A stretch of DNA of 62,745 nt, taken from contig JAHEJC010000003.1 of NCBI GenBank assembly GCA_024639065.1, positions 1 to 62,745 of the forward strand. Reading direction: 5' to 3'. A program made the position numbers and the translations under genes. Below the pieces are notes generated by a model. The model ran no database searches, had not been told where the DNA came from, and saw only the letters and a program-made list of their open reading frames with translations. Origin of the DNA: Lewinellaceae bacterium (lineage in GTDB: Bacteria > Bacteroidota > Bacteroidia > Chitinophagales > Saprospiraceae). This document shows positions 3,926 to 26,058 of the stretch, in pieces. How positions within the stretch are numbered: the first letter of the stretch is position 1; every line of letters starts with the position of its first letter.

Positions 3926-6900
3926 TTATTCTACTATAATCATCTTCTTCGTTGCATTGAATTGATCTGTTTCTAATTGATAGTACAATACACCGGCCAG
4001 ATTCAATTCAGATTTCGTAATATTAATCTGATTTAATCCTTTGGAGTAATTGCCTTCATAAGACTTAATCAATTTTCCGGTAACATCCATGATCTTTAAT
4101 GTAGCTCTGCTATCTTCAGGCAATACAAATCCAATAATCGTTTGTTGATTGAATGGGTTTGGACTGTTCTGCAAGAGAACAAAATCAGATGTCTGGATTT
4201 TATTTCCTGATAAGATGTCTAGTTTAACTTGTTGTACCTCCAATTGATCATCATAGGCTTCAGCGTCCGTGAGGGCCGAACTTATCTTGAACATGTCTTT
4301 AGTATTTCCAAATTCAAGGGTATTAAATACCAGCGTAAATAGTACTTCATCATTAGTAGCACTCACTGGTGAAGTGTTGTGCCAGCTTGTTGACAGTTTA
4401 CCTTCAGCCAATCGGTGAAATCCGAAATTGGAGTCAGATACATCTAACAAACCACTTTCAACTCGCTCCAGATTCAGCGCACTAGCATCAAACTCTAAGG
4501 TGAATTGGTATCCGGTAATCTGTGCAAAATTAGCCGCAGTTACTGGAACTTTAAGCTCCATCTGACTGCTGAATCGAGATTCATCAATCTGAAGAACCAA
4601 CGCTCTAGCTGATCTTATTTGAGCACCCTGTAATTCACTTGGACTTACCGTACCATTAACATCACCGACTTTCAATCCAACAAAATCAACTTTCATATCC
4701 TCTGCCAAATTAGAGATGCTATAGGCTTCCATGAAATCTTCAGTAAGCGGATTTCTAGGATCATTAAACTGGTAATCTTTAGAAACGAATCTCCATGAAG
4801 TATTCTTCACAAATGATTCATCGATACCCAAGATCAATCGGCGCAACTGAACTAAATCCAATGCAGTCACGGCACCATTATCATCTATATCAGCCGCTAT
4901 GATTTTGTATGGACTATTCAATGGTGCAATTCCAAGTATATGCTTCTGGATCAATACCAAGTCCAAAGTTGATACTCCATTAACCGGATTGATATCCTTA
5001 TCAGGAATTATTGAATAAGTGCCTCCCATGACCATATTGCCAAAGTTGAAAGATCCTTCCACTCCAGTACTCACTGGTTGAGTGCCACTGCCTTTTAATT
5101 CAACTTTTACTTTTTCAATCTTGATATTTTGTTCTGTAACCAGTTCACCGGAGATAGTAGCTGTTTGAAGTTGTAAACCAGAACAAGCACCCATGTTATC
5201 TTGAATGGTGACATCAACTACACAGAAATCCTGATTACCCCATGAGTCAGTCACCCACATCTCGACTGTCCTTACTCCAATACTATCGCAAGTGAAATCT
5301 CTATATTTATCAGTTGTATCTGCAGAGAACGAGAAGGCTACCACATCCTGCAAGCAATAAGCAAAACTACCTGCATCAAAATCTTCAGCCCATATTTGAA
5401 CCATGCCTCGGTCAAACGCATTGTCTCCATCATCATCAATTCCCATTAAACCTACAACTAAATCATTGTGACAATAAGGTGTAGGTTTTTTACAAAGATC
5501 AATTTCAAAGGTTATAGTGGTATCTCGAAGGTTTCCACATTTATCCGCAACAGAAAATTTAATTTTGTGCGGATCACCCGGTTTGCTGATTGGGAATGGT
5601 TGGTCGATTGTTGCTGAACCACCGAACTGTCTAGGTAATTCAACATACTCACCCTTTGAAAATTCATCAACAAAAATCCTCCAAACTAATTCAGCATCAG
5701 GGGTGCAATCATCAGAGGCCTCCACCACAAATCTCGCATTACCTACGCAAGTCTCCCGATCAGTAGCACATGCTATCACTTCTTCAGTCACTCTCAATTC
5801 AGGTGCTTCTTGATTTCTTACTTTAATAATTTGAGTATACTTCATGTATCCATCTCCATTATCTTTCAGACTACGATTAATATCATATCTAGTCGGAGAC
5901 GCTACACAGCTATCCAAACAAATGTCAAGGGATCTGTGGTGAACATCTGGATCGTATTCACACCAGTCAATAATTGTCCAGGTTCTAATGATCTTCAAAC
6001 AAGCGTCCTCAACAATGGTAAAGGTCTCATCAGAATAGGACATACCGATTTGCTCGCATTCATCATCAGTAACGACCGGTCTGCCTATGTTATCCGGATC
6101 TAGATCAAATGCTAGATTTGACTCACAGAATAAAGTAGTATCGGCAGGAAATTTAACTTCAAAATCCGATCGGTGTAAAACATAAACCCGTTGATGACAG
6201 GTTGTAGAATTACCACAAGCATCCCGGATAGTCCACGTACGAGTAAGTACTCCCTCTCCACAATCATCTAAGGATCCTGTAGTTGTGCTATCTATCATTA
6301 CATCTTTACAATTGTCTCCATATTCAGGAGTACGGAATAATGAAGTAGGATCAATCCTTACATCGAGGTCATCTAGTTCTAACCAATATGGACAATCAAT
6401 GCAGTTCTTGAATCCACTACCGGGTCCTATAACTATTGGGCCTGGTGCAGTTCCATAACCTCCGTGATTATTACCACATTCTGCATAATGTGCACTTTCT
6501 GCAGCTGGATTTTGGATGACCGCATCACAGTAAACCGTAACATCGTCATATGGTCGACAATAAGGATCAACCTTATCATCAACATTCACTTCCACCATAC
6601 ATTCACTGAAATAGTAAATACAAGAATCAGCCACACCAGTAATGTCGTTTAAGAAATTTGAAAGGGAATAATTTTGCGTGAGTACTTCTGCCAGTGACTT
6701 CTTATCCTGTGCAAAAGACCCTCCTGGTAAACTTTTTTTGTATGTTTCAACACAATAGAAATCATGTTCGGAATCACCATGTAAATGTGGGTCATAATAT
6801 TTATATAGGTGACACTTAGAGTATACCCTGGTTACGACCATATTGTCTTCTGAACATCCTGTAAATTCCACATAGTCATTGAAGATATTACAGTCCAACC

Positions 6901-8446: not shown

Positions 8447-8851
8447 GAGATCTTAGTTTTAGTTAAATAATACACTGTCTGAGGACGCCAAAGGCATACC
8501 TCATTGCAATCAATTCACACAATGACTAAATCCATAGTCAAAGATTTCTTCGATCTATTATCAGAAATTTATTAGCTGGTTAAGCTAATCAGGTATAAGG
8601 TTGAATAACTTAAAAAATGTAGGTTACTAAAATCTCTCAGGAAAATAAAAAAGTAGGTTCTTTATTATTATATGCTCGACATGTACAATACATATTAAAA
8701 CATATAGTAATGTATTGCAAATATAGAGCTTCATTGCAGAAGTAAACTAACTAAATCTGGTATTTTTTATATATCATATAAATTTAAATTATAATCATTT
8801 GATTATCAATATAATTAGATTCGTTGCCTGGCAATTTATGGCCAATATAAA

Positions 8852-8887: not shown

Positions 8888-8919
8888 AACCAACGAACAA
8901 CGAACGTAAGAAGTGTCTC

Positions 8920-11900
8920 TTATTTCAGTACAATCATTTTCTTAGTAGCTATATAATCAGCTGTTTCTAGTTGATAATATAGCATACCTCCAGTAACTAT
9001 TTGATCTAGTTCTACATCCACTGTATGCAATCCTTTTTGATAGGATCCTTTGTGCTCATAAAGCAATTTACCGGATGGATCAAAAACTTTCAATGCTGCA
9101 TCTATTTGACTAGGAATATAAAACTGTATCTGAGTGCGATCTGTAAATGGATTCGGTCTGTTTTGATAAAGGACATAATCTGAACTACTTAATTCATTAA
9201 AATCAAGTAAAACATTGCCAACTCCAGCATCCGCTACGTACACTTCTGCTGGGTTTTCATTGTCTAGATGAATTAGATGGCTGAGCATCCCTTTATCCTT
9301 AGCTATGAAGGTAACTTTGTTTAAGGTCATATCTTCTTCAAAATAAGCTCCTCGGGCATACATCCAAGAATAATGGATTTTCCCTTTATCAACTGCGCTT
9401 TCAAAAAGCTCATTTTCTGAAGAGATAAGTGTCAAGTAATCTTCATCATAATCTAAAGTCCATTGCATAGCTTCCAGAGTTGCCGCTTTATTCAACTTGA
9501 ATAAGACTTCCACTTTCTCTCCCGGTTTAACTAATCTCTCGGGTGTTACCATGGTAACATTCACCTGATTACGCAGGGTTGCTTCTGAACTACCGGTTGC
9601 AACCGCGGATCCATTTACATCACCTAACTTGATAGCTACAAAATCAGTAGCCATTTCATTTTTATTCAATGGATTGTAAAGCACATGCTCCGGAAATTCA
9701 CTATGCCAAGGATTTGATTTGACAGGGAATTCAAAATTCTTATCTACAAATCGCCAACCTAGGTCTGCATCTTCTTGAATTCTACCTAAAATCATTAACT
9801 GGAGTAATGCTACATCTAAAGTAGTTACATCCCCAGATCGATTTATATCTGCAGCAATCATGGCATAAGGAGAAGGCAATAACTCAATACCTAGTATATG
9901 CTTTTGAATATCAAGCAAGTCTAGTGTAGTAACACCGTTAAAAACATTTTCATCGTGCTTTGAAGGCGTCAAAATATACTTAGTTCCCATGGTTACATTA
10001 TCGAACTGATAATGCCCATTCTCATCAGTCATGGCATATACTCCATCTTGTGAAGATGAATTGACCTGAACTTCATTAAGCTTAACTTGCTTTTCAGTAG
10101 CAATGTTTCCAGCAATGGTACCCAACAAATTAAGCGGAGGGCAAATTCCTCCATTGATCGTATCCAGCACCCTAAGCAGTGGCTGGCAAGTATCCTGATT
10201 TCCACTTAAGTCCGTAACAAATACGGTCAATACTACTACTCCTATACTATCACAACCAAAAGTTCTTACCGTATCAGCAACCGCAGTAGTAAATGAAAAC
10301 TTCAAATCTGTTGAGTCTGTAAAATTATTTCCTGTAACGCTGGATACAAATTCATGCGCAAGAACTCTTACTTCCGGCACAGGATCATCAGAAACATGTC
10401 TAAACAACTTAACACATGTAAATTGGACTGGTATTGTGTCTTTAACCTCGACAAGCATTGAATCTACATCGATATTTCCGCATGCATCTTCAGCGGTAAA
10501 AACAATTGTCGTACCACCCAAAGGAAAGAAGTCTGCAATCCGCGCACCTTGATCGTTAAAATTATTTGTTATCGTTACGTCAGGATCACAATCTCTTGCT
10601 ATAGCCGGATCAAGGGTTATAAATGAAGCAAATGAATCTATTGCTGTTGCAAAATGACATGTATCCGGAGGAACCAATAATTGTGGAGGAATCGAATCTG
10701 CAATCCGAATTACCTGCATTTTTATACAGGTGTCATGCGGAGCAGGTGTACATGTATCAACAATCTTCCAGGTTCTAGTAATCATAACATTACAGAATGG
10801 CCCTGTGCCTTGCGACGCAGATTCGTCACTAAAGAAGATCTTAAATCCATGGCATCCTCCAAAATCAGGAATAACGGGTCTGGACATTTCAATACTATCT
10901 GGATCCAGTGATGCCTCACAATCATCAAGATCAATAGTGTCTTGTTCTAAAGTAATCAAATCGCAATCAAACGGATCAGTCACATATATTACCTTGGTTG
11001 TACACACAGCGGAAGGATTACCTGAACCGTCAGCAGCGGTAAAAATCAATAATACAGTATCCAAATCACAAGGCATATCTATTCGTACCGTGTCAACCCT
11101 AAGACTTCCACCCGGACATTCTTCACTTAGCTGTGGGAATATTGAAGGCACTGGATCACCGCACATAACCGTCATATCATCTCTGCAGACTAATGTGGGC
11201 GGTGTCGTATCTTCTACTAAAATGTTAATGCTCAATGCATTCCGGTTACCACAAGAATCAACTCCGGTGAATGTCACCGTATGACTTCCTAAACCGAAGG
11301 TTCCAGTAAATTTAGCACCCCCACCTTGATCATTTGTAATTATAACATTCGGATCACAATCTGTAGCAATAACTGAATCTAATTCAACATCCGCCATACA
11401 ATCCGGACCCGAAAAAGCTGTTATATCTCTTGGGCCTGAAAGCTGGGGTGGTGTGGTATCGTTGACCGCTATAACCTGCACTGAATCCCATCTACCGGCC
11501 CCGGTCATTGGATCAAAATTACATGAATCTATTACCGTCCATTTTCTAAAAATAACTGCACAATAGGCCGGATCTGAACCTGCTGAATCTTGACTAAACA
11601 CATAAACGTCTATACAAGGAATACCGGCAGTATCTACGGTAGTTACTCCACCCGGAACCAAACCAGGCTCAGTACATTCAAATGTAACAATAGGTGTAAC
11701 CGGCCAAGTTATATTCGTCTCATCAAATAAGTTGTTTCCAACGATCGTTATCGTAACCGCACAAGTCGCTGAATTTAATGAACTATCCCAAGCTCTATAA
11801 ACCCTGGTAATGGTTCCTTTTCCACAGTCATCAAGATTAGGTGTTTCAGAAATCAATCGTACCGAATCAACTCCGCAATTATCTGAAGCTCTTGGTGTAG

Positions 11901-14232
11901 TGTCCGGTATATCATCTCCACAAGCAAGTTCAATATCAGCGCACTCGATTTCTGGAAGCTCTTCATCTACAATCGTAATTTCTATTGCCAGCGTATCAAC
12001 ATTGCCACAATCATCCTCTCCATAAAACTCGATGCGATAACTGCCTGTGGTTAATACGGTATCAATTGTATTACCACCTCCATAACTATTTGTAATTTCA
12101 ACGGCTGTATCACAATCCGTGGCGGTTACCGGTCCGATCGTTACCTGTGCCAAACAGTTAGAATCTACCGGTACCGTTTGATTCGAAGCCCCGGAAAGAA
12201 CAGGAGGCTCTGAATCGTTCACTACTATTATTTGTTCACATATCCAAACACTATCTGGCTGACATTTATCCGTAATTCGCCAAGTACGTGTAATTATAAT
12301 ACATGAATCTGGTGTAGAGCTTATTGATGAAGCTACTGCTGTATCAATATCATAACAAGCTAAATCATTCAATCCTGTAAAATCAATATCTCCAATATCC
12401 CCAGCATCACCATCGAAACAACCCTCAACAGTAATATTTCCTGGGCATAGAATATTATCTATACCAAACGGTCGAGGATTGACAATTATCACAGTTTGGA
12501 TCGCTGAGTCCATATCACCATTCAAAACATTAGTGGCAATAAATCTTTTAGTAAAGGTTCCAAGTCCACAGATATCTCTGGTATCCTCAAGGGTATCACA
12601 TCGGATATCCACTTCTGCTATACAGATAGAAGTAACAGTAGGTTCGTCAAAAATGATTGGTTGGTCACAGTTAATCGTTTTCTCTGGAGGAATACTGATC
12701 ATTAGGTCCCCCATAGGACCTATTACAGTAACTCTAAACCTACATATACTCATATTCCCCGCCTGGTCGGTGGCTTTAATCGTTACATAAGCTCGATTCC
12801 CATCTTCACAACAGAAATGAACACAATCATCATAAATCAAATCATCTTCATCATCTTCACAAAAATCTTGATTCTTACGAATCATGATATCAACAGGACC
12901 ACAGTTGTCGGTGGCGGTGAAATTGTCTAAATCCTCAATACAAATTTCCAAGATTTGATCAATATCTACAGTAACCGTAATATCTTCACATCCAATTACT
13001 GGAGGATCTTGATCCTCAATCGTAACTTTATAACTACAGGTGGTCATGTTACCACAAGGATCTGTCACTTTGTATTCAATGGTGTGCTCTCCTTTTTCGA
13101 GATTTACTACTTTCCCTGGATCAAGTTTTACGAAATCATCTAAATTCACTTCTATATCCACATCATCACCATGGCACTCATCAGAGACCGTTGGAGAGGG
13201 GATGGTATAATACCTTGCCGTACTATTTCTATTTGTACCGAGGGTAATATCCGCTGGACATTCAACTACCGGAGGATCTGTGTCCTTTACAGTGATCATC
13301 TGAACTTTTTCTTTGACGACCCAAGTACAGCAATCTGTAATCTTCCAAGTCCTCCAAATAGAAAAAGTTTTGCCACATTCTTGTCTGACAAAATCTTTGT
13401 AAGAAACTATGATCCCACAGAGGTGATCAAATGGTTTACCGTTTATGGTTGGAACCCCCGTGGCGGATGGATCTGTATCAGTATTGGGACATTCTAATAC
13501 AACATTTCCTGGAATTTGAACTGCTGACATGGGAGGTCTGGAAATATAAATAGTCTGGACACATGTATTGGAATTACCTGCTTTATCCCATACGGTCCAA
13601 TGCCTGTCAATTTGACTTGATGCACTAAAAATGGTGCAATCATTGACATCAATTTTCTTATCTACATAGCTTGTATAGATTTCAGATGTAGGTGTGCAAT
13701 TATCGGAATAAGTGATTGTGACATCCTTCAGACTTGCCTGACAGTGGACAGTCACAGGCTGGGAACAATTTATATCCGGAGCTTTGACATCTCGCACATT
13801 AGCCCAAGTACTACAAGATTCACCAGTCTTATTATTATTCACAATAATCAGCCATTTTTTGCCGGTATCCCCGCAATAAAACTTTCTTCCTCCTTTTTTG
13901 TATATATAATAATAATAATCACCTGCATTTGAAGGTGGAGATGGTAAACCTAAAACCTCTTCAAGCTTGACATAATAGGAGTTACCTTCCATTTGAATAT
14001 CAATATTTTTTACGCAATCGGTAATCATAGATTGTTGGGGCATATTTACATCATACCCATAATAGAATGACTTTTCCAAGGAAAAAGGATTACCTAAAAA
14101 TCCGGACAAATAAGGGTTCATTTCACCTTTTGTTATAGCTGGCAAGCTACTCAAGGATACCATCATACAGCCTAAAAAAAGCAGTCTGTTGAGCTGTCTG
14201 ATGGGGTTGTTCATGGTCGATAAATATCTCAT
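8920..14232 (-). CDS. Giant secreted multi-HYR protein with dockerin-like module, cohesin-like domain and T9SS sorting domain (1770 aa; 'P2')
   Basis: HYR-type repeats (DTDPPVVECPADITLGTN...GEHTIEYKVTDPCGNMTTCSYKVTIEDQDPPVI); dockerin-like FNGVTTLDLLDIQKHILG...ADINRSGDVTTLDVALLQLMILG; cohesin-like VKPGEKVEVLFKLNKAATLEAMQWTLDYDEDYLTLI; tail YQNRPNPFTDRTQIQFYIPSQIDAALKVFDPSGKLLYEHKGSY...KKMIVLK. Confidence 0.88.
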   Translation of the reverse strand: MRYLSTMNNPIRQLNRLLFLGCMMVSLSSLPAITKGEMNPYLSGFLGNPFSLEKSFYYGYDVNMPQQSMITDCVKNIDIQMEGNSYYVKLEEVLGLPSPPSNAGDYYYYIYKKGGRKFYCGDTGKKWLIIVNNNKTGESCSTWANVRDVKAPDINCSQPVTVHCQASLKDVTITYSDNCTPTSEIYTSYVDKKIDVNDCTIFSASSQIDRHWTVWDKAGNSNTCVQTIYISRPPMSAVQIPGNVVLECPNTDTDPSATGVPTINGKPFDHLCGIIVSYKDFVRQECGKTFSIWRTWKITDCCTWVVKEKVQMITVKDTDPPVVECPADITLGTNRNSTARYYTIPSPTVSDECHGDDVDIEVNLDDFVKLDPGKVVNLEKGEHTIEYKVTDPCGNMTTCSYKVTIEDQDPPVIGCEDITVTVDIDQILEICIEDLDNFTATDNCGPVDIMIRKNQDFCEDDEDDLIYDDCVHFCCEDGNRAYVTIKATDQAGNMSICRFRVTVIGPMGDLMISIPPEKTINCDQPIIFDEPTVTSICIAEVDIRCDTLEDTRDICGLGTFTKRFIATNVLNGDMDSAIQTVIIVNPRPFGIDNILCPGNITVEGCFDGDAGDIGDIDFTGLNDLACYDIDTAVASSISSTPDSCIIITRTWRITDKCQPDSVWICEQIIVVNDSEPPVLSGASNQTVPVDSNCLAQVTIGPVTATDCDTAVEITNSYGGGNTIDTVLTTGSYRIEFYGEDDCGNVDTLAIEITIVDEELPEIECADIELACGDDIPDTTPRASDNCGVDSVRLISETPNLDDCGKGTITRVYRAWDSSLNSATCAVTITIVGNNLFDETNITWPVTPIVTFECTEPGLVPGGVTTVDTAGIPCIDVYVFSQDSAGSDPAYCAVIFRKWTVIDSCNFDPMTGAGRWDSVQVIAVNDTTPPQLSGPRDITAFSGPDCMADVELDSVIATDCDPNVIITNDQGGGAKFTGTFGLGSHTVTFTGVDSCGNRNALSINILVEDTTPPTLVCRDDMTVMCGDPVPSIFPQLSEECPGGSLRVDTVRIDMPCDLDTVLLIFTAADGSGNPSAVCTTKVIYVTDPFDCDLITLEQDTIDLDDCEASLDPDSIEMSRPVIPDFGGCHGFKIFFSDESASQGTGPFCNVMITRTWKIVDTCTPAPHDTCIKMQVIRIADSIPPQLLVPPDTCHFATAIDSFASFITLDPAIARDCDPDVTITNNFNDQGARIADFFPLGGTTIVFTAEDACGNIDVDSMLVEVKDTIPVQFTCVKLFRHVSDDPVPEVRVLAHEFVSSVTGNNFTDSTDLKFSFTTAVADTVRTFGCDSIGVVVLTVFVTDLSGNQDTCQPLLRVLDTINGGICPPLNLLGTIAGNIATEKQVKLNEVQVNSSSQDGVYAMTDENGHYQFDNVTMGTKYILTPSKHDENVFNGVTTLDLLDIQKHILGIELLPSPYAMIAADINRSGDVTTLDVALLQLMILGRIQEDADLGWRFVDKNFEFPVKSNPWHSEFPEHVLYNPLNKNEMATDFVAIKLGDVNGSAVATGSSEATLRNQVNVTMVTPERLVKPGEKVEVLFKLNKAATLEAMQWTLDYDEDYLTLISSENELFESAVDKGKIHYSWMYARGAYFEEDMTLNKVTFIAKDKGMLSHLIHLDNENPAEVYVADAGVGNVLLDFNELSSSDYVLYQNRPNPFTDRTQIQFYIPSQIDAALKVFDPSGKLLYEHKGSYQKGLHTVDVELDQIVTGGMLYYQLETADYIATKKMIVLK

Positions 14233-14276: not shown

Positions 14277-17200
14277 TTAATTAACCTTAATCATTTTATT
14301 TCTCGCTGTATGCCAAAGGCTTTTCAGCTCATATATGTAGATTCCATTGTGCGGAATATGTTCGTCATTTAATTCTATTTCATGTTTGCCTTTCAACAAT
14401 GACATTTGTCTAGTATGAACTAAGCGTCCTTCCAAATTGTAAATGTTGAAATTCACATTTTGATCTTTGGGTAAGCTAAAGGCGATTTTGGTTACATTGT
14501 TAAAAGGATTGGGCTCATTCTGCTGCAATCCAAAATAATCGTTAGCTGAAGTTCTAGAATCTTCTACTAGGACTACTTGATTAATTTGATTATTGGTATA
14601 AATTTCACTAGAGAAATTATGCTTTTCCAGTTTAATCCATTCTGCAACATCATCAGTAGTTCGCGTCTGTTCAAATTGAATAGAAAACAATTTACTTGAG
14701 GTGATATTCATCTCCGTTTGAGGATTCCAACTGACTCTCAATTGTTTGAAATCTTCATGAAAATAAACATGTTCAGCGCCAAGCAAACCATCCATATTGA
14801 TCTGTAAAGAATGAGCCTGATTAAGTATATTCAATGCAAATTGAATTCCTTGAAAATCTGTCAGATCTTTCAAATAAAAATTCAGTTTAATGAAGTCCCC
14901 GTCCTTAACTTGTTGGACAAATAAATTGCTTTTGAGTTGATCATTTCGAACTGAAGCTTGAGCAAATCGATTCGGTTCTACACTATAATTTACATCTCCA
15001 AGCTTGACTCCAATAAATTCAATATTCATTTGATCAGTTAAATCCTGAATGTTGTATAAAGTTGGATAAGCTTCCTCGAACGGACTTAATGGGTTGATAA
15101 ACTCATAGGATGCGTCAATGAATTCCCAAGATTTATTATCCCTGAAATGAGGAATGATCCCTAAGATCAGTTTTCTCAAATGCACTACATCAAGCGTAGT
15201 GACACTTCCATTTTGATTGATATCCGAGGCAATAATTTGATAAGGAGATTCAAAGGGCTTGCTACCCAGGACATGTTTGGTAATGCGTACAATGTCCAAA
15301 GTCGATATACCATTAAGTGGATTAATTTCTTTTTTAGGTACAATCTGGTAATCCTGATGCATAGCTACCTGATCAAAAACAAATTTACCTCTACGGTTGG
15401 TAGTTGTCGGTACATTGTTTGTACCCTGAAGCATGGTTATGGAAACTCGCTCTACCGGCAAGTCTTTTTCAGTTTTAATCAATCCCTGCACGGTGGTTTT
15501 CTGCTCGCCTGTGAAGACCGTATTAACACATACCCCCATATTGTCTTGAATTTCAAGGGTATTGGTGGTAAAATCGAAATTACCAGCTTCATCAAAGACG
15601 TAAATCGTAACCGGATTTATCCCCAGATCGGCACAGGTAAATATGCGTACGGAGTCATCTACATTCGCTGAATAGGCATATCTCAACATGTGTACCGGAG
15701 AACAATTATCTTCGCTTTTAGACTTAAATAATCTGGCAGGAACTTCTACCATACCGCCTCCATTCATGGCCATCAGTTCGGCCACCAGGCTACCATTAAA
15801 TATGGCAGATGGTGGTTTCAGGTCTTGAACCGTAAGTAAAAAGGTTCCGTCTGATCTATTGCCACACCCATCATTGACGAATACATGAATTTTATGGGTT
15901 CCTAATGGATACATCCCACTGGCATCTTTCCCGGTGCCTTCATCCTCATAGCCACCATCATTTCCTAAATCTACTTTATAAGTGAATTGCAAATCCGTTG
16001 GCATTGTGCAATCCGTGGCACTAAATACAGGAATTGTTGCCAAAGCAGGCCCACATAGGAGCGATTCTGTACCTACCGTCAAATCCGCCAGTGGACCGAG
16101 TACCGGTGGTACTGTATCCATCACTTTTATTACCTGGGTAAAATGCCAGAATCCAGAAGATGAGCCGTAAGGATTATACTCTGAACCGTCAAATTGGCAC
16201 CAATCAAAAACTTTCCAGGTTCTTAATATTTTGTAGCAGGCATTTTCTACATATTGATATAATTCATCTGAATATCTAAAAGCAATTTGCCCACAACTGT
16301 TCTTGAGATTTATTCTTGGCGAACCCGTGTTAGCTGTATCGGTTGCTGCGTTACAAGTTTTTAAGACAACATTTTCTGGCCATTTGAGGTACGTAGTATC
16401 GGTACCGTCAAATGGATTGCGATCCCGCACGAAAATCTTATGATTGCAAGTATCCGTGAGTCCGGACGCATCCATTGCAACCCATCGCCTAATGATGCAC
16501 CCAACGTTGCATTCGTTTAAATCATAAATGGTGGTATCCAATTTTATGGTTGCTCCACTACAATTATCTGTAAAACCAGGTGTAGGTATATAACTCAAAT
16601 CCAATAAGTCATCACTGCAATCAATGGTATCTGCATCCGGGCAATCTATGACCGGAGGTGATTTGTCCAAGACTGTTACCATCAGCATAAAATCTGCATG
16701 GTTATTTGGCCGTAGGTCATCTTCGACGGTGCCTAGAGGGACAATTTTATCATAGACTCTTAATAATACCATAACCGGTGTCCCCACATCTTCACAACAA
16801 AACTTGATGTTATCGTCAAATTTGTTATCGGGATTTCCGGTATTCGCGCAGGTGAATCCAACCGGCGCATTCAGTCTTTTCACTTTGAAAAAGACATTAT
16901 ACAATTCGCATAAGTCGCGGCTTCCATTATCAAATTGGGTTGCCGGGATAGTCATCATGCTTACCCCTCCATTGAATTGGAGTTCCATATCTCTTCCCTG
17001 AGCGAGTGGGGGTGTTTTATCTTCTACTTTGAGTTCAGCCATTGCACGGCCCAAATTTGAGCATCCATCATCCGCGACATATTCTACATCATAATGACCT
17101 GGCGGTACATCAAATACTCTACCTTCAGAATCTGAGGTGGCCATAAAAAAAGGATCTCCTACTTTGGAAAATACATTGATAGTTATGGTGATATCTGCAG

Positions 17201-17909
17201 AATCAGTGCAATTATCGAACAGAGAAGCGGGAGGTGGGAAGGTGATATCAGCAGCGCACTTATCAGTTTCAATGCACTCTTCAATTGGAGTCATCAGTGT
17301 GATAACAGGATCGGTTGAATCCGTTATTTCTATAGTTTGACAAGTATCTATTACCAAAGAGTTATCACATTTATCCATGATCAACCAGTTACGCTTGAGC
17401 TTATAACTATTAGGACAACCCAAGTATGGGATAGACGTGGACACACCAATCCATAAATTGCATTGGATATGATTTTCAACAATAGGAAAGCTATCGATCA
17501 TTGGATACCCAGCCGAGGATTCAGTTGTATCCCCTAAACTGCAATCTATGATCGTATCTCCCGGAAAAGTAATGTCAGAAATATCTATCCGGGTCAGGCA
17601 TATCGTATCTTTGAATTCAAATGAATTGATACCTGCATTAATCATCCATCGTCGGTAGTATTTATAATATATGGGATTACTTGTACAATGAAAAGCCTCC
17701 GTTTCAAGAGGCTGTATTAATTCAATGGACACAACATCACAGTCTCCACCTCCCATAGGCATAATATCCGCCATAGTCACCTTGGGAAACGAATCCACAG
17801 GCACTACACAAGGAAATGTATCACGTGCAGGAAAATCAATCACACATTGAGCATTAAGGTTCGTTATTGAGTTCAGTATTAAGAATAAAAGAATCGCTAG
17901 TTCCTTCAT
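14277..17909 (-). CDS. Giant secreted HYR-like protein with dockerin-like module and T9SS sorting domain (about 1210 aa; 'P3'); internal ATG preferred over track start 17933
   Basis: MKELAILLFLILNSITNLNAQ signal peptide; RTWKVFDWCQFDGSEYNPYGSSSGFWHFTQVIKV; dockerin-like INPLNGISTLDIVRITKHVLG...SDINQNGSVTTLDVVHLRKLILG; tail LQQNEPNPFNNVTKIAFSLPKDQNVNFNIYNLEGRLVHTRQ. 44-nt gap to P2 suggests a P3-P2 operon. Confidence 0.87.
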   Translation of the reverse strand: MKELAILLFLILNSITNLNAQCVIDFPARDTFPCVVPVDSFPKVTMADIMPMGGGDCDVVSIELIQPLETEAFHCTSNPIYYKYYRRWMINAGINSFEFKDTICLTRIDISDITFPGDTIIDCSLGDTTESSAGYPMIDSFPIVENHIQCNLWIGVSTSIPYLGCPNSYKLKRNWLIMDKCDNSLVIDTCQTIEITDSTDPVITLMTPIEECIETDKCAADITFPPPASLFDNCTDSADITITINVFSKVGDPFFMATSDSEGRVFDVPPGHYDVEYVADDGCSNLGRAMAELKVEDKTPPLAQGRDMELQFNGGVSMMTIPATQFDNGSRDLCELYNVFFKVKRLNAPVGFTCANTGNPDNKFDDNIKFCCEDVGTPVMVLLRVYDKIVPLGTVEDDLRPNNHADFMLMVTVLDKSPPVIDCPDADTIDCSDDLLDLSYIPTPGFTDNCSGATIKLDTTIYDLNECNVGCIIRRWVAMDASGLTDTCNHKIFVRDRNPFDGTDTTYLKWPENVVLKTCNAATDTANTGSPRINLKNSCGQIAFRYSDELYQYVENACYKILRTWKVFDWCQFDGSEYNPYGSSSGFWHFTQVIKVMDTVPPVLGPLADLTVGTESLLCGPALATIPVFSATDCTMPTDLQFTYKVDLGNDGGYEDEGTGKDASGMYPLGTHKIHVFVNDGCGNRSDGTFLLTVQDLKPPSAIFNGSLVAELMAMNGGGMVEVPARLFKSKSEDNCSPVHMLRYAYSANVDDSVRIFTCADLGINPVTIYVFDEAGNFDFTTNTLEIQDNMGVCVNTVFTGEQKTTVQGLIKTEKDLPVERVSITMLQGTNNVPTTTNRRGKFVFDQVAMHQDYQIVPKKEINPLNGISTLDIVRITKHVLGSKPFESPYQIIASDINQNGSVTTLDVVHLRKLILGIIPHFRDNKSWEFIDASYEFINPLSPFEEAYPTLYNIQDLTDQMNIEFIGVKLGDVNYSVEPNRFAQASVRNDQLKSNLFVQQVKDGDFIKLNFYLKDLTDFQGIQFALNILNQAHSLQINMDGLLGAEHVYFHEDFKQLRVSWNPQTEMNITSSKLFSIQFEQTRTTDDVAEWIKLEKHNFSSEIYTNNQINQVVLVEDSRTSANDYFGLQQNEPNPFNNVTKIAFSLPKDQNVNFNIYNLEGRLVHTRQMSLLKGKHEIELNDEHIPHNGIYIYELKSLWHTARNKMIKVN

Positions 17910-18300
17910 TCGGTGTTGGTTAAAAGGTCTCATCTAATTAATATTTAGACAGTTATAAATGCACAGGATTAGATCCAATACATTGAATTAGGTTCTATTT
18001 ATAGCGATACTGTCTTATAGATTCTACTAGAGAATCACGTTTGGGATGAATATATTACAGAATATACTAACTTATATTTTACTGTTTAATAAAGTAATAC
18101 ATATGACAAAAATATGTAATATAATTATTTCACCTATACCTGACATCTGGTATTTTACAAAATATCAATTACATATATATACTAGTGATATGTCTAATAA
18201 CTTGTAAACCAATAATTTTTAGCCAAAAATCGAAGTTGCGAGGTGGAATTTTGAGATTCTCTTTTAGGGATATTTTTATAGTAAAATTTACTTCATCAAT

Positions 18301-18360: not shown

Positions 18361-21000
18361 CTATTTAATCAGCACCATTTTCTGGGTTGTCCGATCCGAT
18401 TTGGTCTTCAAGGTATAATAATATACTCCTCCCTGATGAAGTTTTGCACCATCTAGCTCAATTTGATGAAATCCTTTCAGCAAAGGAGTTTGATAATTCC
18501 ACACTTCTTTACCAGCAATATCATAAATAGTTAACGTCACCGGACCATCCTCCATTAAATCAAAAGGAATTATTGTATTCTTGCTAAATGGGTTTGGTGT
18601 ATTTTGATATAGTTTAAATGAACCATTTGCAATCAAGTCATTTTTGATAATTACCTGTCCATTTAAATCGTTCTGATCCACTGCTTCATTTACGTGTTTC
18701 GTCAGCTCTAGTCCGGTTTTAGAAATAGATAATAGTTTAACTTCATTGACCGATTCATTATGAGTCCATATTATTTTGGCAACTTGTTCTTCTTTAATCA
18801 TTTTAGCGTTAACATGTAATTCGGTCAACACTCCCTCTTCCAAGTTAATACTAAACATAGCGCCTTTAAATTGTTGCCCATTTTTAGTCCATAACTCGGT
18901 ATTATTTCCATTTTGTCTAGTATAGAGTTCAAGATTTGCCGGTTCTTCCTTGTTTCTCAGCGATGCTCCAGTTCGGGAAAGTGTACCATCAATATCTCCT
19001 AATTTTACACCTATAAAATTTAATGAACTCATTGGATTGGTTACCATAGCCAGATCATATGCTTCTGGAAATGGGTTTTCAAATGGATTTACTGGATTTG
19101 GAAAGACATAATTTGCATCAACAAATCTCCAGGACTTAGATCCTTCTGGCATTGCTTCTCCCCTGTTGAGAATCATAGAGCCCAATTTAAATACATCCAT
19201 TACATCAATTACACCAGAACCATCCACATCAGCAGCAATCATTTTATAAGGTGAATCCAGCTCGATATTACCAGCTACATAGTTGAAAAGCATGATGTAG
19301 TCCAGGGTAGTTACCCCATCTGTAAAATGAATATCTTTATGAGGTTTGACTACATATCCTTGGTCTTTTGCAATATCAATACTGAAATTTCCTAATTGGT
19401 CAGTCATTGTAGAAACCATTCCAACTCCTTCAAAGTTTACTAATGCTTCCTGCACGGCCATTCCACCTTCGGTAACAATATTACCACTCAAGGATACCAC
19501 TGCTTGCTCGCTTGAATCCTGAGGGCACATGCCTAAGTTATCCTGAAGTATCAATGTAGCTGTACAGAAATTTTCATTTCCAAATTCATCGATTACAAAT
19601 ATCTTTATTTCATTGGTGCCTATATCGTCACAATCCAATCTTGAAGGTTCAGCTCTAAAATCCAAATAATGGTTAGGGGTTACATTATCATAGCTCCCTG
19701 CATCAAAAAGTTTGGGATCAATTACGGTATACAGTCCATCATTGTGCCATCCAATATCCGTAACGATTTTGGTATGACAATAAGGCGTGGGCGCATGTTC
19801 GTCCCTCACCGTAATTTTTACTTTACAAGAAGTATGATTATGACATCCATCCGCTACCTTAAAAGTAACCCAATGAACACCCATAGGATAATGCCCACTG
19901 GCATCTGCACCATGGCTATCAGCATATTTTGAATCATTAGTGATATGTAACTTATCACTACAAGATCCGTCACTTAGCGAAGCGGTGGCTTCATCTAGGT
20001 CCACAAAAGCAGTTGAAGCGTTACCTGAAACAGTTACGGTTTTATCTTCTGGACACTCGATTACCGGAGCGCTTCCACCTTTTACTTTAATCAACTGGGT
20101 ATGGGTCCACTTTCCATAACTATTGCTACCGTAGCCACTATTACCATAACTGTTATGATTATAAGAATAAGCATCATAATTACACCAGTCAATTACAGAC
20201 CAGGTACGCAAAATCTTGTAGCAAAAATCAGGTTTATCATGATATCCTGTAGTAACAGGATAGAATATTTCATCATGATAAGAAATGCCTAGTTCACTGC
20301 AATTTCCTTTGTTAGAAAGGTGAGGATAACCATAGTGATCGCCTAAATATTTTGGATCTAAATCGGCTTCACACTCATCCGTCCAAAAATCAGCAGGCCA
20401 ATATTTTACAGGTGATCCATACTCATGGCCTTTAATTTTTACTAGATATTCGCAGTAATGTTGCTTTCCACATTCATCAACTATCTTCCAGGAAACTTTT
20501 ATGTGCCCAATACCACAGTTATTTAAGTGTTTTTCTTTCCAGGGACCAAAAATCTCATAATGACCATAGGAATGCACTTTTGGTTTTTTAAACTGGTAAT
20601 AATGCAAATCATCACAATAGATCCATTCATCATAAGGACATTCTATGGTGAGACTATTGGATTGATAATGGTCATTTTCTACCCAAATTTTCGTATAACA
20701 ATAATGCCATTTACCATAATGATCTTTGATCCTCCAGGTTACTTTGATGTGGCCTGAATAGCAATTTATGTGCTTATCTACCCAAGGGCCTTCAATATGA
20801 TACCCATATCCATGAACCACTGGCTTATAATGGTTATAATCGATATAATGAATATCCGAATAGTTGACATAACCATCATGAGCACATTGAATATCTAATG
20901 ATTCTTCATTATTGGCGTGACTATCAATGTTAAAACCAATCAGGATAAACCCAAGAAATAAAATGTTTTTGGAGATGTTTAATAGTAGAGATCTGTCCAT
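18361..21000 (-). CDS. Secreted His/Tyr-rich protein with dockerin-like module and T9SS sorting domain (879 aa; 'P4')
   Basis: N-terminal His/Tyr-rich tandem repeats (HGYGYHIEGPWVDKHINCYSGHIKVTWRIKDHYGKWHYCY...); RTWSVIDWCNYDAYSYNHNSYGNSGYGSNSYGKWTHTQLIKV; dockerin-like FTDGVTTLDYIMLFNYVAG...ADVDGSGVIDVMDVFKLGSMIL; tail LYQNTPNPFSKNTIIPFDLMEDGPVTLTIYDIAGKEVWNYQ. Confidence 0.88.
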   Translation of the reverse strand: MDRSLLLNISKNILFLGFILIGFNIDSHANNEESLDIQCAHDGYVNYSDIHYIDYNHYKPVVHGYGYHIEGPWVDKHINCYSGHIKVTWRIKDHYGKWHYCYTKIWVENDHYQSNSLTIECPYDEWIYCDDLHYYQFKKPKVHSYGHYEIFGPWKEKHLNNCGIGHIKVSWKIVDECGKQHYCEYLVKIKGHEYGSPVKYWPADFWTDECEADLDPKYLGDHYGYPHLSNKGNCSELGISYHDEIFYPVTTGYHDKPDFCYKILRTWSVIDWCNYDAYSYNHNSYGNSGYGSNSYGKWTHTQLIKVKGGSAPVIECPEDKTVTVSGNASTAFVDLDEATASLSDGSCSDKLHITNDSKYADSHGADASGHYPMGVHWVTFKVADGCHNHTSCKVKITVRDEHAPTPYCHTKIVTDIGWHNDGLYTVIDPKLFDAGSYDNVTPNHYLDFRAEPSRLDCDDIGTNEIKIFVIDEFGNENFCTATLILQDNLGMCPQDSSEQAVVSLSGNIVTEGGMAVQEALVNFEGVGMVSTMTDQLGNFSIDIAKDQGYVVKPHKDIHFTDGVTTLDYIMLFNYVAGNIELDSPYKMIAADVDGSGVIDVMDVFKLGSMILNRGEAMPEGSKSWRFVDANYVFPNPVNPFENPFPEAYDLAMVTNPMSSLNFIGVKLGDIDGTLSRTGASLRNKEEPANLELYTRQNGNNTELWTKNGQQFKGAMFSINLEEGVLTELHVNAKMIKEEQVAKIIWTHNESVNEVKLLSISKTGLELTKHVNEAVDQNDLNGQVIIKNDLIANGSFKLYQNTPNPFSKNTIIPFDLMEDGPVTLTIYDIAGKEVWNYQTPLLKGFHQIELDGAKLHQGGVYYYTLKTKSDRTTQKMVLIK
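20428..20898 (-). repeat. Two tandem ~75-aa His/Tyr-rich protein repeats inside P4
   Basis: LDIQCAHDGYVNYSDIHYIDYNHYKPVVHGYGYHIEGPWVDKHINCYSGHIKVTWRIKDHYGKWHYCYTKIWVE aligned to LTIECPYDEWIYCDDLHYYQFKKPKVHSYGHYEIFGPWKEKHLNNCGIGHIKVSWKIVDECGKQHYCEYLVKIK. Confidence 0.8.
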
Positions 21001-21243: not shown

Positions 21244-24200
21244 TTATTCAATCACCACCATTTTCTTAGTAGCTGTGTAATCCTGAGCATCAAGCTGATA
21301 GTAAAGTACTCCTGAAGCAGGCATGTCTTTCTTATCGACTCGAATTTCATTATATCCTTTTGTAAAGTCACCAGTATATTCCTTCACTATTTTACCCGTC
21401 ACATCGAGTATTTTCAAACTAGCACTTCCTTTCACTGGTAATACAAATCCTATGGTAGTGGTCTTGCTGAATGGGTTTGGATTGTTTTGATACAATTCAA
21501 AGTCCCCTGTTTCAACAAGCGCATCTCCTCTGGTAAATTCTACTGAAACGTTCATCACCTGACCAGCTGCATATGCTTCTGATTTGGTGATTGCAGAATT
21601 AAACTTAAAGGCTTCACTTAAATTGACATTTTGATCTGCTCGTACGACTATATAGAATAAGTCATCTGTTTTGTCGATTGATACAGGCTCAAAGCTGTTC
21701 CAAGAAGTAGTAACCAAACCTTTCTCTGAATTAATGAATCCAAAGTTGTCTTCGCTCACATTAATACTTCCAGACTGGATTTCAGTAATCGTAACGCCAT
21801 TAAGATTTATGGTGAATTGATAACCTTCCACACCTAAGAAGTTCTTAGCTCTCACGGGAATACGGAATTCTTGTCCCGCATTCAATGATTGCTCTTCAAT
21901 AGTGAAGGCCAATTTAGCACCACTTGTTCTGACACTAGCACCGAGTAAACCATTGGCGAGTGCAGTACTATTGACATCTCCGATTTTTATTCCAATCAAG
22001 TCAATCAGATTTTGACCTTCGCTCATCTTGTCGATTACCACTTCAAATGGGAATCCCCAAGGCTGAGTCCGGTCAGCGAATTGATAATCTTTGGACACAA
22101 ATCTCCAGGAGTCGTTATTTGGAAACTCATCATATAACCCAAGGATTAGTTTTCTCAATTCTACAATATCCAATGCAGTAACTGTATTAGACTTGTTAAT
22201 ATCTGCGGCAATAATCTTATATGGAGAACTCAACTTCTGAATTCCTAAGATATGCTTCTGGATAAATACAAGGTCTAACGTACTTACTCCATTGATAAAG
22301 TCATTATTTCTGACTGCTTTTACTCGGTACTGACGATCCATAGGTACACCATTGAAAGCATACAATCCATCAGCTCCAGTGGTAAAGTTTGAAAATGGAT
22401 TCGTACTGGTACGAAGATCAACAGATACATCTTGAACATTTTCACTGTTTTCTGTTGATATCACCCCGGCAATTGACGCCGCTGAGCTATCATTACAAAC
22501 ACCATTACCCTGTATTGAAAGATACGTCTCACAGAAATCATAGTTTCCTGATGCATCCCATACATAGATAGTTACTGGAATGGTACCTACTGAATCACAA
22601 GTAAACTCTCTGGATTGATCATCAATATCGTCAGAGAATGAGAAGGTCAACTCACCTTTGTCACAGTTATCAAAGCTACCCGCATCCAAATCTTTCGCCC
22701 ATACTTTAATAGCTCCTGTGGTAGGCATTAATACAGTAGCTATACCATGGTAACAGTAAGGAGTAGGCTTCTTACAATCTTTCACTTCAAAATCAACATA
22801 ACAAGTATCTTCATTTCCACACTTATCTGAAGCAATCAGATAGGCCCTATGCAATCCTACTGGGAATTGTCCTTTCAATCGATTTTGATCACTTTCTGAG
22901 CTATAGATATAATCATCTTCATCTCCACCTATGAATGGATCCACGTACCATCGGTAAGCGATCTCATCAACAGGGGTACACTCATCTGTGGCAGTACCTA
23001 ATTCGTAATCCACAATAGGTAATATACAATCTTCATCATCTATACAGATCTCAAAGGGATCAGAACAAGCCAGCGTCGGTGCATTTCCATCATATACTTT
23101 GATCACTTGTAGATAAGTCATGATACCATCACCATTATCTTTCAGTTTTCGATATATACATGGTCTTTCTTCACCAGCTCTAACTCTGTCATCAACAATT
23201 ACTTCTGCATAACGATCGTGCAAATCAGGATTGTAAACACACCAGTCAATAATTGTCCAGGTTCTGAAGATTTTATAACAAGCTTCATCCACAATATCAA
23301 ACTTTTGATCTTCATAATTTACTCCAATAAATTCACAATCATCATCACTAATGATAGGATATCCGACCCCATCCTCAGAAGCTTCGAGTATAGGACTAGT
23401 AGTACAATCTACTAATGTATCCCCAGGGAAACATACTTCAAAGTCAGAACGGGCCTTAACCACTATCTTCTGATAACATACTGAAGAATTATCACAGTAA
23501 TCGTACACCGTCCAGGTTCGGGTTAAGTAACCATTTCCACACTCATTGAGATAAGTTTTTGTATCGGTCACAATATCTTTCACTCCGCAATTATCATCAA
23601 TAACTGGTTCATCAAATTGCTCTGTAGGATCAGGCTTGCCATATGAAGGATCATCGTATCGGTCAAGTAACAACCACAGTCGGCAATAGACTGGCTCCCA
23701 GTTTACATTTTCGTAACAAGGATCATGTCCATAACTGTGATCATCTCCATAAACACTATGACCAGGACCGGCATAGTAACCATGTTTTCCACCATTCCAA
23801 GGATAATCATACGCATCCGGATTACAACAGAATGGATCTGAATGGCGCTCTACTGAAATATTTCCAAGCACCTCTATTAGATCTGAATTCCTGAGGGTAT
23901 GTAAGGTCTTCGGATTATCAAAGGTTTTAATGACTTTATCAATGGTAATAGTATCCCAATAAGGCACACCATCACAGAAGATAGTCTTATCATCCGGTGC
24001 ATCACAAATTGGAGCAACTTTATCATCTTTGATTATCTCCACCATACAGTCGTTATACAAATGTGGGAATGTGTACCTGCTTTCACACAATATTGCTAGT
24101 TCAGGATACTTAGCCAGATTTGCTTTCCATTGTAGATACAGCGCATAGTATTTGTCTGTAGGTTCCTGATGTCTCTGGAATTCACAACAAACATAATTAT

Positions 24201-26058
24201 GCTCCACTACATGCGTGTAATCACCTACTAATTTATTCTCTGCAGTATTTATTGCGAAAGTCAAAGGCAAACATTCCTCATCAAAATCATAAACTAAGTC
24301 ATCATAGTTACAACCTAAATAAGGTCGTGGACTTTCATAATGCGTATATCTATGATAATTGACTTTGAAGAAACATGCAAAGTCATCATATACATTGAAG
24401 CAGTACCAGTTATGCTTAGTTCCTTTGAATATATGCGGATCGTATAATGGAAGACCACAAGCTTCATAAACTCTCAACACAACTGTATCTCTTCCACAAT
24501 TTGACAGATCGATATAATCATTAAAAACATAACAATTAATCCAATGCTCAATGGTTTCTTCGATTTCATCTTTCTGCGCATGGTATGCATAATGTCCGAG
24601 ACATTCTTCATACTCAGTTCTCCAATGATTTCTCCAGTATTCAATAGAATCCATTGAAGCTACAGCAAAGTGCAGTTTATTACAACAATTGTCATGACTT
24701 CCATCATCAAGACTCTCAGCATATACTCGAGCCCAGCATTCTTCTGGATCAAGCGTAACTTGAGTAATTTCATCACATATCGGTGTAGGTGGTTGTTCAT
24801 CGACTACATATACAATTTGTTGTACTGTAGTTGAGTTGAGACATCCATCGATCAATATTAGATTGACGACGTGCCAGCCAGCCGGTAAGTAAATACGTTC
24901 CTTGGTCCCGGGTTTTATCTCCCCAGAATAATAGAGGCCTTGAGATACACCATGTCTGGCAGGTACTTCTACTGAGTATCTAACCGTCACCTCATCAAAT
25001 GCATTCCAGCATTCTTTGATAATAGGTGGTCGCACTAGATCCACATGAGCTTTACATTCATGCTTACTGGTATAGCCATAGATTGTATCAATTTTGGCAA
25101 GATCAACTACAGGTGCCAACGTATCAATAATCTTAATCCATTGGGTGCATACTGTGTCTTCTTTTGAACACCAATCAACAATCTTCCACTCTCTACGGAT
25201 TTTGTAAGTATGCCCACAAGCTTCAATTATATGATCTTTGTAATGGGCATAGATCTGACAGAAAGCGGTATTTGGCCATACATAGACTGTATCACCATCA
25301 TTCAATACAAATGGCGGATCTACCAGGCCAATACTGTTCCCTAACGGATCGATAATAGGTTTTGGAATTCGCTTTCCATCTACAATATCATAATACATAG
25401 TATCCTGAAGTCGTGGATCGCAACATTCCAATAGAGTATCCGGGGGACAAACCAGGCTATCCAGAGTCTCTCTTTCAATATAGAGCGTCTGGTCACAAGT
25501 TTGTGAATTTCCCCAAATGTCAAGAGCTCGTACTGTTCTTTCAATACGACCTACAAAATTTAGACTGTCACAATTATAATCGATCCAGCGATGACTGATA
25601 ATTTCAGTCCTGGCGGGATACATACAATTGTCAGTCGGTTCTATTAAAATCGCAGGATATTCTTCAGCTATAAAACAACTGATGGTATCATCCCCACACA
25701 TAATTTGGGGAGGATACTTGTCCTCGATTTTAATTCGACCCCAACAGGAATTGCCTGAAACAGTATCTCGCACTCTATAAATGAGTGTATACTGTATCAA
25801 TCGCTTGTCGACCATGTTGGGAGCCAAGTCAACTGTAAGATCTGGGTACGGATAATCTATTTCAACTACTAAGTTTGAATCAGCACAAGCTGTGAGATCA
25901 CCATTTAAAACATCAGCTACTTCGACCGTACGCATACAGGCAGAATCCATACTGATGTTAACCAAATCGTTACAATTTAATTTACATTCCTGAGCAGATA
26001 AATTATCCAACCCAATCAATGTAAAAAAAGCGGTCAATGTAAACATTAGCTTTTTCAT
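21244..26058 (-). CDS. Giant secreted Cys-rich HYR-like protein with dockerin-like module, cohesin-like domain and T9SS sorting domain (about 1604 aa; 'P5'); internal ATG preferred over track start 26088
   Basis: MKKLMFTLTAFFTLIGLDNLSAQECKLNCNDLVNIS; dockerin-like NDFINGVSTLDLVFIQKHILG...ADINKSNTVTALDIVELRKLILG; cohesin-like NAGQEFRIPVRAKNFLGVEGYQFTINL...LVTTSWNS; tail LYQNNPNPFSKTTTIGFVLPVKGSASLKILDVTGKIVKEY...KKMVVIE. Confidence 0.9.
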   Translation of the reverse strand: MKKLMFTLTAFFTLIGLDNLSAQECKLNCNDLVNISMDSACMRTVEVADVLNGDLTACADSNLVVEIDYPYPDLTVDLAPNMVDKRLIQYTLIYRVRDTVSGNSCWGRIKIEDKYPPQIMCGDDTISCFIAEEYPAILIEPTDNCMYPARTEIISHRWIDYNCDSLNFVGRIERTVRALDIWGNSQTCDQTLYIERETLDSLVCPPDTLLECCDPRLQDTMYYDIVDGKRIPKPIIDPLGNSIGLVDPPFVLNDGDTVYVWPNTAFCQIYAHYKDHIIEACGHTYKIRREWKIVDWCSKEDTVCTQWIKIIDTLAPVVDLAKIDTIYGYTSKHECKAHVDLVRPPIIKECWNAFDEVTVRYSVEVPARHGVSQGLYYSGEIKPGTKERIYLPAGWHVVNLILIDGCLNSTTVQQIVYVVDEQPPTPICDEITQVTLDPEECWARVYAESLDDGSHDNCCNKLHFAVASMDSIEYWRNHWRTEYEECLGHYAYHAQKDEIEETIEHWINCYVFNDYIDLSNCGRDTVVLRVYEACGLPLYDPHIFKGTKHNWYCFNVYDDFACFFKVNYHRYTHYESPRPYLGCNYDDLVYDFDEECLPLTFAINTAENKLVGDYTHVVEHNYVCCEFQRHQEPTDKYYALYLQWKANLAKYPELAILCESRYTFPHLYNDCMVEIIKDDKVAPICDAPDDKTIFCDGVPYWDTITIDKVIKTFDNPKTLHTLRNSDLIEVLGNISVERHSDPFCCNPDAYDYPWNGGKHGYYAGPGHSVYGDDHSYGHDPCYENVNWEPVYCRLWLLLDRYDDPSYGKPDPTEQFDEPVIDDNCGVKDIVTDTKTYLNECGNGYLTRTWTVYDYCDNSSVCYQKIVVKARSDFEVCFPGDTLVDCTTSPILEASEDGVGYPIISDDDCEFIGVNYEDQKFDIVDEACYKIFRTWTIIDWCVYNPDLHDRYAEVIVDDRVRAGEERPCIYRKLKDNGDGIMTYLQVIKVYDGNAPTLACSDPFEICIDDEDCILPIVDYELGTATDECTPVDEIAYRWYVDPFIGGDEDDYIYSSESDQNRLKGQFPVGLHRAYLIASDKCGNEDTCYVDFEVKDCKKPTPYCYHGIATVLMPTTGAIKVWAKDLDAGSFDNCDKGELTFSFSDDIDDQSREFTCDSVGTIPVTIYVWDASGNYDFCETYLSIQGNGVCNDSSAASIAGVISTENSENVQDVSVDLRTSTNPFSNFTTGADGLYAFNGVPMDRQYRVKAVRNNDFINGVSTLDLVFIQKHILGIQKLSSPYKIIAADINKSNTVTALDIVELRKLILGLYDEFPNNDSWRFVSKDYQFADRTQPWGFPFEVVIDKMSEGQNLIDLIGIKIGDVNSTALANGLLGASVRTSGAKLAFTIEEQSLNAGQEFRIPVRAKNFLGVEGYQFTINLNGVTITEIQSGSINVSEDNFGFINSEKGLVTTSWNSFEPVSIDKTDDLFYIVVRADQNVNLSEAFKFNSAITKSEAYAAGQVMNVSVEFTRGDALVETGDFELYQNNPNPFSKTTTIGFVLPVKGSASLKILDVTGKIVKEYTGDFTKGYNEIRVDKKDMPASGVLYYQLDAQDYTATKKMVVIE

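Follow-up and report, generated by a model that had tools for sequence, protein, structure and literature searches.

The C-terminal ends of six large proteins, P1 to P6, combine a dockerin with a type IX secretion (T9SS) sorting domain and, in all but P4, with a cohesin, and these proteins are encoded in one row of genes with a two-cohesin scaffold protein and a PorP/SprF-family membrane protein. Our preferred reading, to which we give about an even chance, is that the row specifies a non-cellulosomal, calcium-dependent dockerin-cohesin surface assembly that is built by the T9SS and anchored by PorP, docking in trans to the scaffold-class cohesins being the most likely mode of interaction. The folds, the fixed cassette, the two cohesin classes, the conserved synteny and the co-occurrence of the components, on which this reading draws, were computed here.

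Results

The window (the whole stretch of DNA that was analysed, 62,745 nucleotides) is an entire contig, C483, of a draft genome of 6.77 Mb in 616 contigs. Its minus strand holds a row of eight genes in the order P6, scaffold, PorP, P5, P4, P3, P2 and P1. By increasing coordinate, the genes and their modules are:

3926..8446, minus strand: P1, 1506 aa, HYR-like repeats with the cassette at the C-terminal end (CPD 5012-5155, dockerin 4820-5011, conserved extension 4607-4816, cassette cohesin 4190-4612, type A sorting domain 3929-4183; AF2 model)
8920..14232, minus strand: P2, 1770 aa, HYR repeats and cassette (CPD 9976-10116, dockerin 9784-9960, extension 9568-9759, divergent cassette cohesin 9187-9564, sorting domain 8923-9174)
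14277..17933, minus strand: P3, 1218 aa, cassette-bearing (CPD 15345-15491, dockerin 15156-15344, extension 14943-15146, divergent cassette cohesin 14556-14927, sorting domain 14283-14534)
18361..21000, minus strand: P4, 879 aa (CPD 19375-19488, dockerin 19165-19350, extension 18976-19140, no detectable cohesin, sorting domain 18364-18618)
21244..26088, minus strand: P5, 1614 aa, cassette-bearing (CPD 22327-22473, dockerin 22135-22323, extension 21922-22131, cassette cohesin 21520-21921, sorting domain 21247-21501)
26474..27424, minus strand: PorP/SprF-family type IX secretion membrane protein, presumed scaffold anchor (Pfam PF11751 2.4e-47; TIGR03519 3.8e-49)
27449..30094, minus strand: scaffold protein, 881 aa, two scaffold-class cohesins (29528-29935 and 29090-29488), six SprB repeats and a CHU_C type B sorting domain
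30289..35853, minus strand: P6, 1854 aa, cassette-bearing (CPD 31360-31494, dockerin 31165-31353, extension 30961-31164, cassette cohesin 30553-30963, sorting domain 30292-30546)

An earlier note on this DNA had placed its proteins within 3926-26058; P6 falls outside that interval, and 26058 is an internal ATG start of P5. It also overlooked a third source of cohesins, namely the two-cohesin protein at 27449-30094, which, together with the PorP gene preceding P5, fills the space from P6 to P5, all on one strand. A gene for a LuxR-type response regulator (36173-36847), directly upstream of P6 and again of this strand, possibly regulates the cluster.

In the P proteins, Pfam recognises HYR repeats, the carboxypeptidase-regulatory-like domain (CPD), the modules Dockerin_1 and Cohesin, and the type A sorting domain of the T9SS. 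The last of these (Por_Secre_tail/TIGR04183) exceeds the NCBIfam cut-off in P1, P5 and P6 and the Pfam cut-off in P3 and P4.

The C-terminal cassette is fixed in its order (CPD, dockerin, conserved extension, cohesin, T9SS type A sorting domain) and comprises about 410 aa. That the dockerin is followed by a cohesin on the same chain in P1, P2, P5 and P6, as had been claimed from inspection of the letters, is borne out by the profiles; however, the cohesin is not directly next to it, since a conserved extension (about 70 aa) and then a short junction intervene, and the separation amounts to about 80 residues in P1, P2, P3, P5 and P6. A scan of GTDB genomes with the CPD-dockerin-extension-cohesin module as query gave at least 570 relatives among at least 589 pattern matches, and among the matches listed nearly all carriers of the module are Saprospiraceae; the cassette was found in 53 of 60 genomes of this family. 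From the CPD to the C-terminus, it measures about 394-421 aa in the 76 loci with a complete frame (78 loci were kept). As a control for query bias, 40 regions were used that cover most Pfam Dockerin_1 matches in seven relatives (G001-G007). Nearly all proteins of this set that have both a cassette dockerin and a sorting domain hold a cohesin, or a cohesin-sized gap, between the two, while the regions from G003, G005 and G006 contain no cassette, their Pfam dockerins being of another kind.

The remaining modules of the cassette proteins, as seen in 24 full-length proteins scanned, are HYR, P-domain, PKD, fn3 and CUB, and no glycoside hydrolase was found among these 24. One cassette protein of the window's own genome (contig C347, L025:1296-3032) has an N-terminal AhpC/TSA (redoxin) domain, an enzyme-like cargo.

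Pfam Cohesin (PF00963) matches 49 of 67 cassette homologues at E<=0.01. In the window, the match lies above the cut-off in P1 (2e-7), reaches 28.5 bits in P2 in a six-frame search of the genome, is below the cut-off or unlisted in P3 and P5 (below it in P5) and is missing in P4. With a cassette-cohesin HMM, built like the other HMMs of the window check from other organisms only and without window sequences, scores of 134 bits for P1, 141 for P5, 137.5 for P6, 43 for P2 and 38.5 for P3 were obtained. P3 and P4 had been described as having divergent versions; this holds for the cohesin of P3, but P4, with about 119 unassigned aa between the dockerin extension and the sorting domain, has no cohesin that Pfam or the cassette HMM detects.

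Modelled alone with AF2, the cassette cohesin of P1 has a pLDDT of 95.6 and a pTM of 0.89, and the top 50 PDB matches of this model are all cohesins or cohesin-containing chains. The best of them reach a TM of up to 0.68 at an rmsd of 3.2-3.4 A, among them cohesin 6 of A. cellulolyticus ScaB, which was solved with its dockerin (5nrk, TM 0.68), and C. thermocellum Coh2 (1ohz and 1anu, TM 0.65-0.67). Searched against PDB sequences, the cohesin profile gave cohesins in 20 of 23 matches, the other three being designed Ig-like proteins.

Entropy across 75 cassettes is 0.1-1.9 bits at the outward-facing positions of strands 3 (G216, Q218, T220) and 5 (T256, S258, N260), and about 3 bits at outward positions of the opposite sheet (e.g., 201, 203, 205, 207, 229, 231, 234, 312, 314, 316), the inside and outside of the strands being assigned by strand alternation and hydrophobicity, not by coordinates. 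In the alignment with C. thermocellum Coh2 (whose sequence was checked against 1ohz), the two conserved strands fall on the stretches N-C-D-F-V and V-F-L, which presumably carry the dockerin contacts in the 1ohz complex. As judged by sequence, the conserved face corresponds to the one that binds dockerin in known complexes and may itself bind dockerin. That the domain is a mere linker or a part of the sorting module was rejected on the grounds of the profile matches and the predicted fold, and its putative dockerin-binding face is both present and conserved.

For the dockerin, Pfam Dockerin_1 (PF00404) matches P1 with 1.5e-6; P1, P2, P5 and P6 are above the cut-off, P3 is just below it, and P4 is weak. 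With a cassette-dockerin HMM from other organisms only, each of the six P proteins scores 57-109 bits, and the matches of the dockerin profile among PDB sequences are mainly dockerins (best 3.4e-8). The duplicated calcium loop-helix motif is present, with loop 2 near canonical. Loop 1 is atypical in that it has Leu or Met at position 5, and calcium binding by this loop is putative. It conforms to a consistent variant, [DN]x[DN]x[LM]NG[VI][ST]TxD (residues 55-66 of the P1 cassette), and about 100 residues after it the extension ends in an invariant KxGD[VL]N motif (residues 163-168), which may provide an additional calcium ligand or be structural; in the window, the region of the two covers about 4655-4996. 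We considered a split or circularly permuted loop 1 whose D-x-N half would come from the invariant GDVN of the extension, but rejected it as stated because loop 1 keeps Asp or Asn at positions 1 and 3 in most sequences. Positions T64, K72, H73, R106 and K107, which we take to be equivalent to the recognition positions of classical dockerins, are conserved. In the window's own genome, a near-identical paralogue pair on contigs C550 (L019:3-1226) and C447 (L020:783-5363) has a degenerate dockerin with an insertion in loop 2 and loss of ligands.

Several small proteins of about 190-360 aa stop right after the dockerin or its extension and have neither cohesin nor sorting domain (L198:2233-3204; L022:3630-4544, from the window's own genome; L157:1627-2706; L167:2928-3950); another short protein of this kind is found at L173. 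In the closed genome G075, two overlapping ORFs (L196:8142-8714 and 8593-9312), each with a CPD-dockerin and neither cohesin nor sorting domain, lie directly downstream of a four-cohesin scaffold. Since such dockerin-only proteins have no cohesin in cis, they could dock only in trans, which makes docking in trans likely. Perhaps they are carried across the outer membrane by cohesin-bearing cargo.

In a FastTree phylogeny of 136 cohesins, 56 of the 58 cassette cohesins fall into one clade (support 0.999), apart from the cohesins of multi-cohesin scaffolds and of small proteins with a cohesin and a type A sorting domain. The tree requires a single change of class, as compared to 44 on average with shuffled labels. 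A conserved cysteine pair is present in the scaffold class and missing from the cassette class. Separate clades are as expected for two specificities, and the split, which resembles the type I/II division of cellulosomes, argues against the assumption of one promiscuous pair. The cohesin of the C550 copy clusters with the scaffold class.

The window scaffold is matched by Cohesin (4.5e-18), CHU_C (8.4e-22) and TIGR04131 (3.5e-11), and 24 bp separate its gene from that of PorP/SprF. Scaffolds of relatives have 3-10 cohesins as compared to two in the window; the one scanned for this contains SprB repeats, and no CBM or SLH match was found in two scaffolds scanned. The recurrent order in relatives is a dockerin cassette gene, a protein of about 260 aa, the scaffold (CHU_C) and PorP. 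The protein of about 260 aa combines one scaffold-class cohesin with a type A sorting domain and lies directly upstream of the scaffold in many relatives (L197:8911-9687, L206:10133-10924, L207:4549-5322, L208:1373-2272, L210:558-1358, L075:11416-12210); the window has none. Phaeodactylibacter xiamenensis KD52 shows this order with about 12 cohesins split over two adjacent ORFs: cassette, small cohesin protein, the two ORFs and PorP.

Among 21 scaffolds picked by their tandem cohesins alone, dockerins being disregarded, the fetched flank contains a dockerin gene for ten (P = 2e-8 if the chance rate is taken as 5%, 1e-5 at 10%) and none for about half. In G075, a dockerin gene lies within 3 kb of two of the three scaffolds (P = 0.0046). 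Of 60 genomes, 53 have both cassettes (E<=1e-12) and cohesins of the scaffold type (E<=1e-10), and the other seven have neither; the two counts are largely, though not wholly, independent, because the scaffold-type profile also catches some cassette cohesins (in G075, most of these reach it only at about 1e-4 to 1e-11). The notion that cassette-rich genomes with weak scaffold matches lack scaffolds proved mostly wrong, since scaffolds were found in five of them, a three-cohesin type B protein of about 1040 aa in each of G002, G059, G077 and G068 and a four-cohesin one in G051. One genome, G067, has 14 cassettes and no clear tandem scaffold.

Discussion

Export of type A cargo by the T9SS with loss of the sorting domain is established in other systems. 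P1 to P6 would likewise be exported, shed their sorting domains and sit at the surface, and their dockerins would plug in trans into the scaffold-class cohesins of the type B protein (27449-30094), which the PorP/SprF partner (26474-27424) would hold at the outer membrane. Type B T9SS proteins are anchored by PorP-like proteins (PMC9143113). The cassette cohesin, which belongs to the second class and would lie nearest the membrane, probably takes further dockerins in the manner of an adaptor scaffoldin, such that branched or chained assemblies could arise through it. Dockerin binding to these cohesins, its specificity and the surface location are what we infer. As a partner for the dockerins, the scaffold is better placed than the cassette cohesin: its cohesins form a separate clade, its gene is in the same run, and it is conserved beside cassette genes in relatives. 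The cassette proteins carry adhesive or Ig-like modules and, as far as scanned, no glycoside hydrolases; an enzyme machine is a less likely product than a coat or an array of adhesins. Against this scaffold model speak the near-constant length of the junction, the atypical loop 1, the varying number of scaffold cohesins, the roughly half of the scaffolds that lack an adjacent dockerin gene, the partial overlap of the two profiles in the co-occurrence count, and G067.

The junction is at the heart of the best-surviving alternative. Between dockerin and cohesin it measures 18-20 residues in 71 of 75 sequences, whereas the spacer from the cohesin to the sorting domain varies between 25 and 39 residues. 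This points to a set arrangement of the modules within one chain and sustains the idea that dockerin and cohesin pack or stack in one chain as a rigid, calcium-stabilised stalk beside the sorting domain, without a partner in trans. The fixed module order fits this, as does the AF2 model of the P1 cassette (75 sequences; pLDDT 93.8), with its fairly high pTM of 0.78. Clear but mild dips in confidence occur only around residues 171-185 and 321-335, so that residues 1-170 (CPD, dockerin and extension) seem to form a single unit, after which come the cohesin (186-320) and the sorting domain. The cassette cohesins, moreover, have been inherited with their dockerins as one clade. However, the same dockerin occurs without a cis cohesin in the dockerin-only proteins, the outward face of the cohesin is more conserved than a passive stalk requires, and the gene linkage with multi-cohesin scaffolds would be left unexplained. 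We hold such a stalk to be rather improbable.

Slightly less probable still is the head-to-tail polymerisation proposed in the earlier note, by which the dockerin of one P protein would bind the cassette cohesin of another, of the same or a different paralogue, and form filaments or a mesh with no need of a scaffold. The proposal is partly supported: the cohesin identity of the domain and its conserved face leave room for chaining or intramolecular binding, each chain holds the two partners, and their recognition faces are conserved among paralogues as well as between species. Cassette paralogues are also numerous within a genome (14 matches in G000, 34 in G075), and G067 has its 14 cassettes without a clear tandem scaffold. 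Yet a scaffold of a different cohesin class is conserved beside the cassette genes, no cohesin can be recognised in P4, and some proteins have the dockerin alone. Characterised scaffoldin chains with both modules usually combine different types and thus avoid self-binding. The contrast that had been drawn with textbook cellulosomes was overstated, as C. thermocellum CipA (3kcp) has cohesin and dockerin on one chain.

That both folds are mere remnants, kept as generic EF-hand and beta-sandwich spacers without mutual recognition, would accord with the many non-cellulosomal cohesins and dockerins that have no known function, with the atypical loop 1 and with the degenerate dockerin of the C447/C550 pair, but is very improbable given near-invariant outward recognition positions and the co-occurrence of both partners.

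We return to the scaffold model and its relation to known systems. Many-cohesin scaffolds are known chiefly from anaerobic, cellulolytic, Gram-positive bacteria. The Saprospiraceae system would work like a scaffoldin but is not a cellulosome, an identity that was rejected for want of glycoside hydrolases in the cassette proteins scanned. It does have a multi-cohesin scaffold (its cohesins number two in the window and 3-10 or more in relatives), whereas plant cell-wall-degrading dockerin enzymes are missing among the 24 full-length cassette proteins, and in place of anchoring by SLH, sortase or CBM, the scaffolds end in CHU_C and PorP/SprF adjoins. With cellulosomal and adaptor scaffoldins (C. 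thermocellum CipA, A. cellulolyticus; PMC11557425), it shares a multi-cohesin scaffold, surface anchoring, chains with both cohesin and dockerin, and two classes; it differs in belonging to Gram-negative Bacteroidota, in type B/PorP anchoring by the T9SS and in its one fixed dockerin-cohesin cassette.

The closest likeness is to the "planctosome" proposed for freshwater Planctomycetes, whose adaptor has dockerin, HYR and cohesin on one chain (PMC6461901). Common to both are the non-cellulosomal nature, such an adaptor and a cohesin-bearing anchor protein, and the P-domains of the planctosome also occur in some Saprospiraceae cassette proteins. However, the planctosome belongs to another phylum, has the order dockerin-HYR-cohesin and a lamin-tail anchor (no lamin-tail domain was found in the proteins that we scanned) and is proposed to hold peptidases, and no T9SS sorting domain, PorP partner or multi-cohesin scaffold is described for it (PMC6461901). 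ANME archaeal proteins (PMC9012536) are likewise non-cellulosomal, some chains having a dockerin and up to five cohesins, but they are archaeal, have no T9SS, and no fixed C-terminal cassette is reported for them. The SprB/SprF type B adhesins of the T9SS (PMC9143113) share with our scaffold the type B C-terminal domain, the SprB repeats and the adjoining gene for a PorP-like anchor; SprB is a gliding adhesin, whereas the Saprospiraceae scaffold has an N-terminal cohesin array and dockerin proteins beside it. Neither this cassette nor a cohesin scaffold with T9SS/PorP anchoring is described in the openly available literature that we searched.

Tentatively, and with less conviction than for the scaffold model itself, we extend it to a calcium-dependent coat throughout the Saprospiraceae, in which T9SS type A adhesins would plug by their dockerins into a PorP-anchored multi-cohesin scaffold and into each other by means of two cohesin classes, a cellulosome-like architecture without cellulases. 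Phaeodactylibacter xiamenensis, which is cultured and has a large scaffold, makes the assembly model testable. Were it true, protein engineering would gain further cohesin-dockerin pairs, and there would be a testable explanation for the large share of coding capacity that is spent on giant HYR proteins. Saprospiraceae are common in activated sludge and in the sea; with such scaffolds family-wide, anchored by T9SS/PorP and encoded beside dockerin-bearing adhesins, the building of a cell surface or matrix would be a second major biological use of dockerin-cohesin chemistry.
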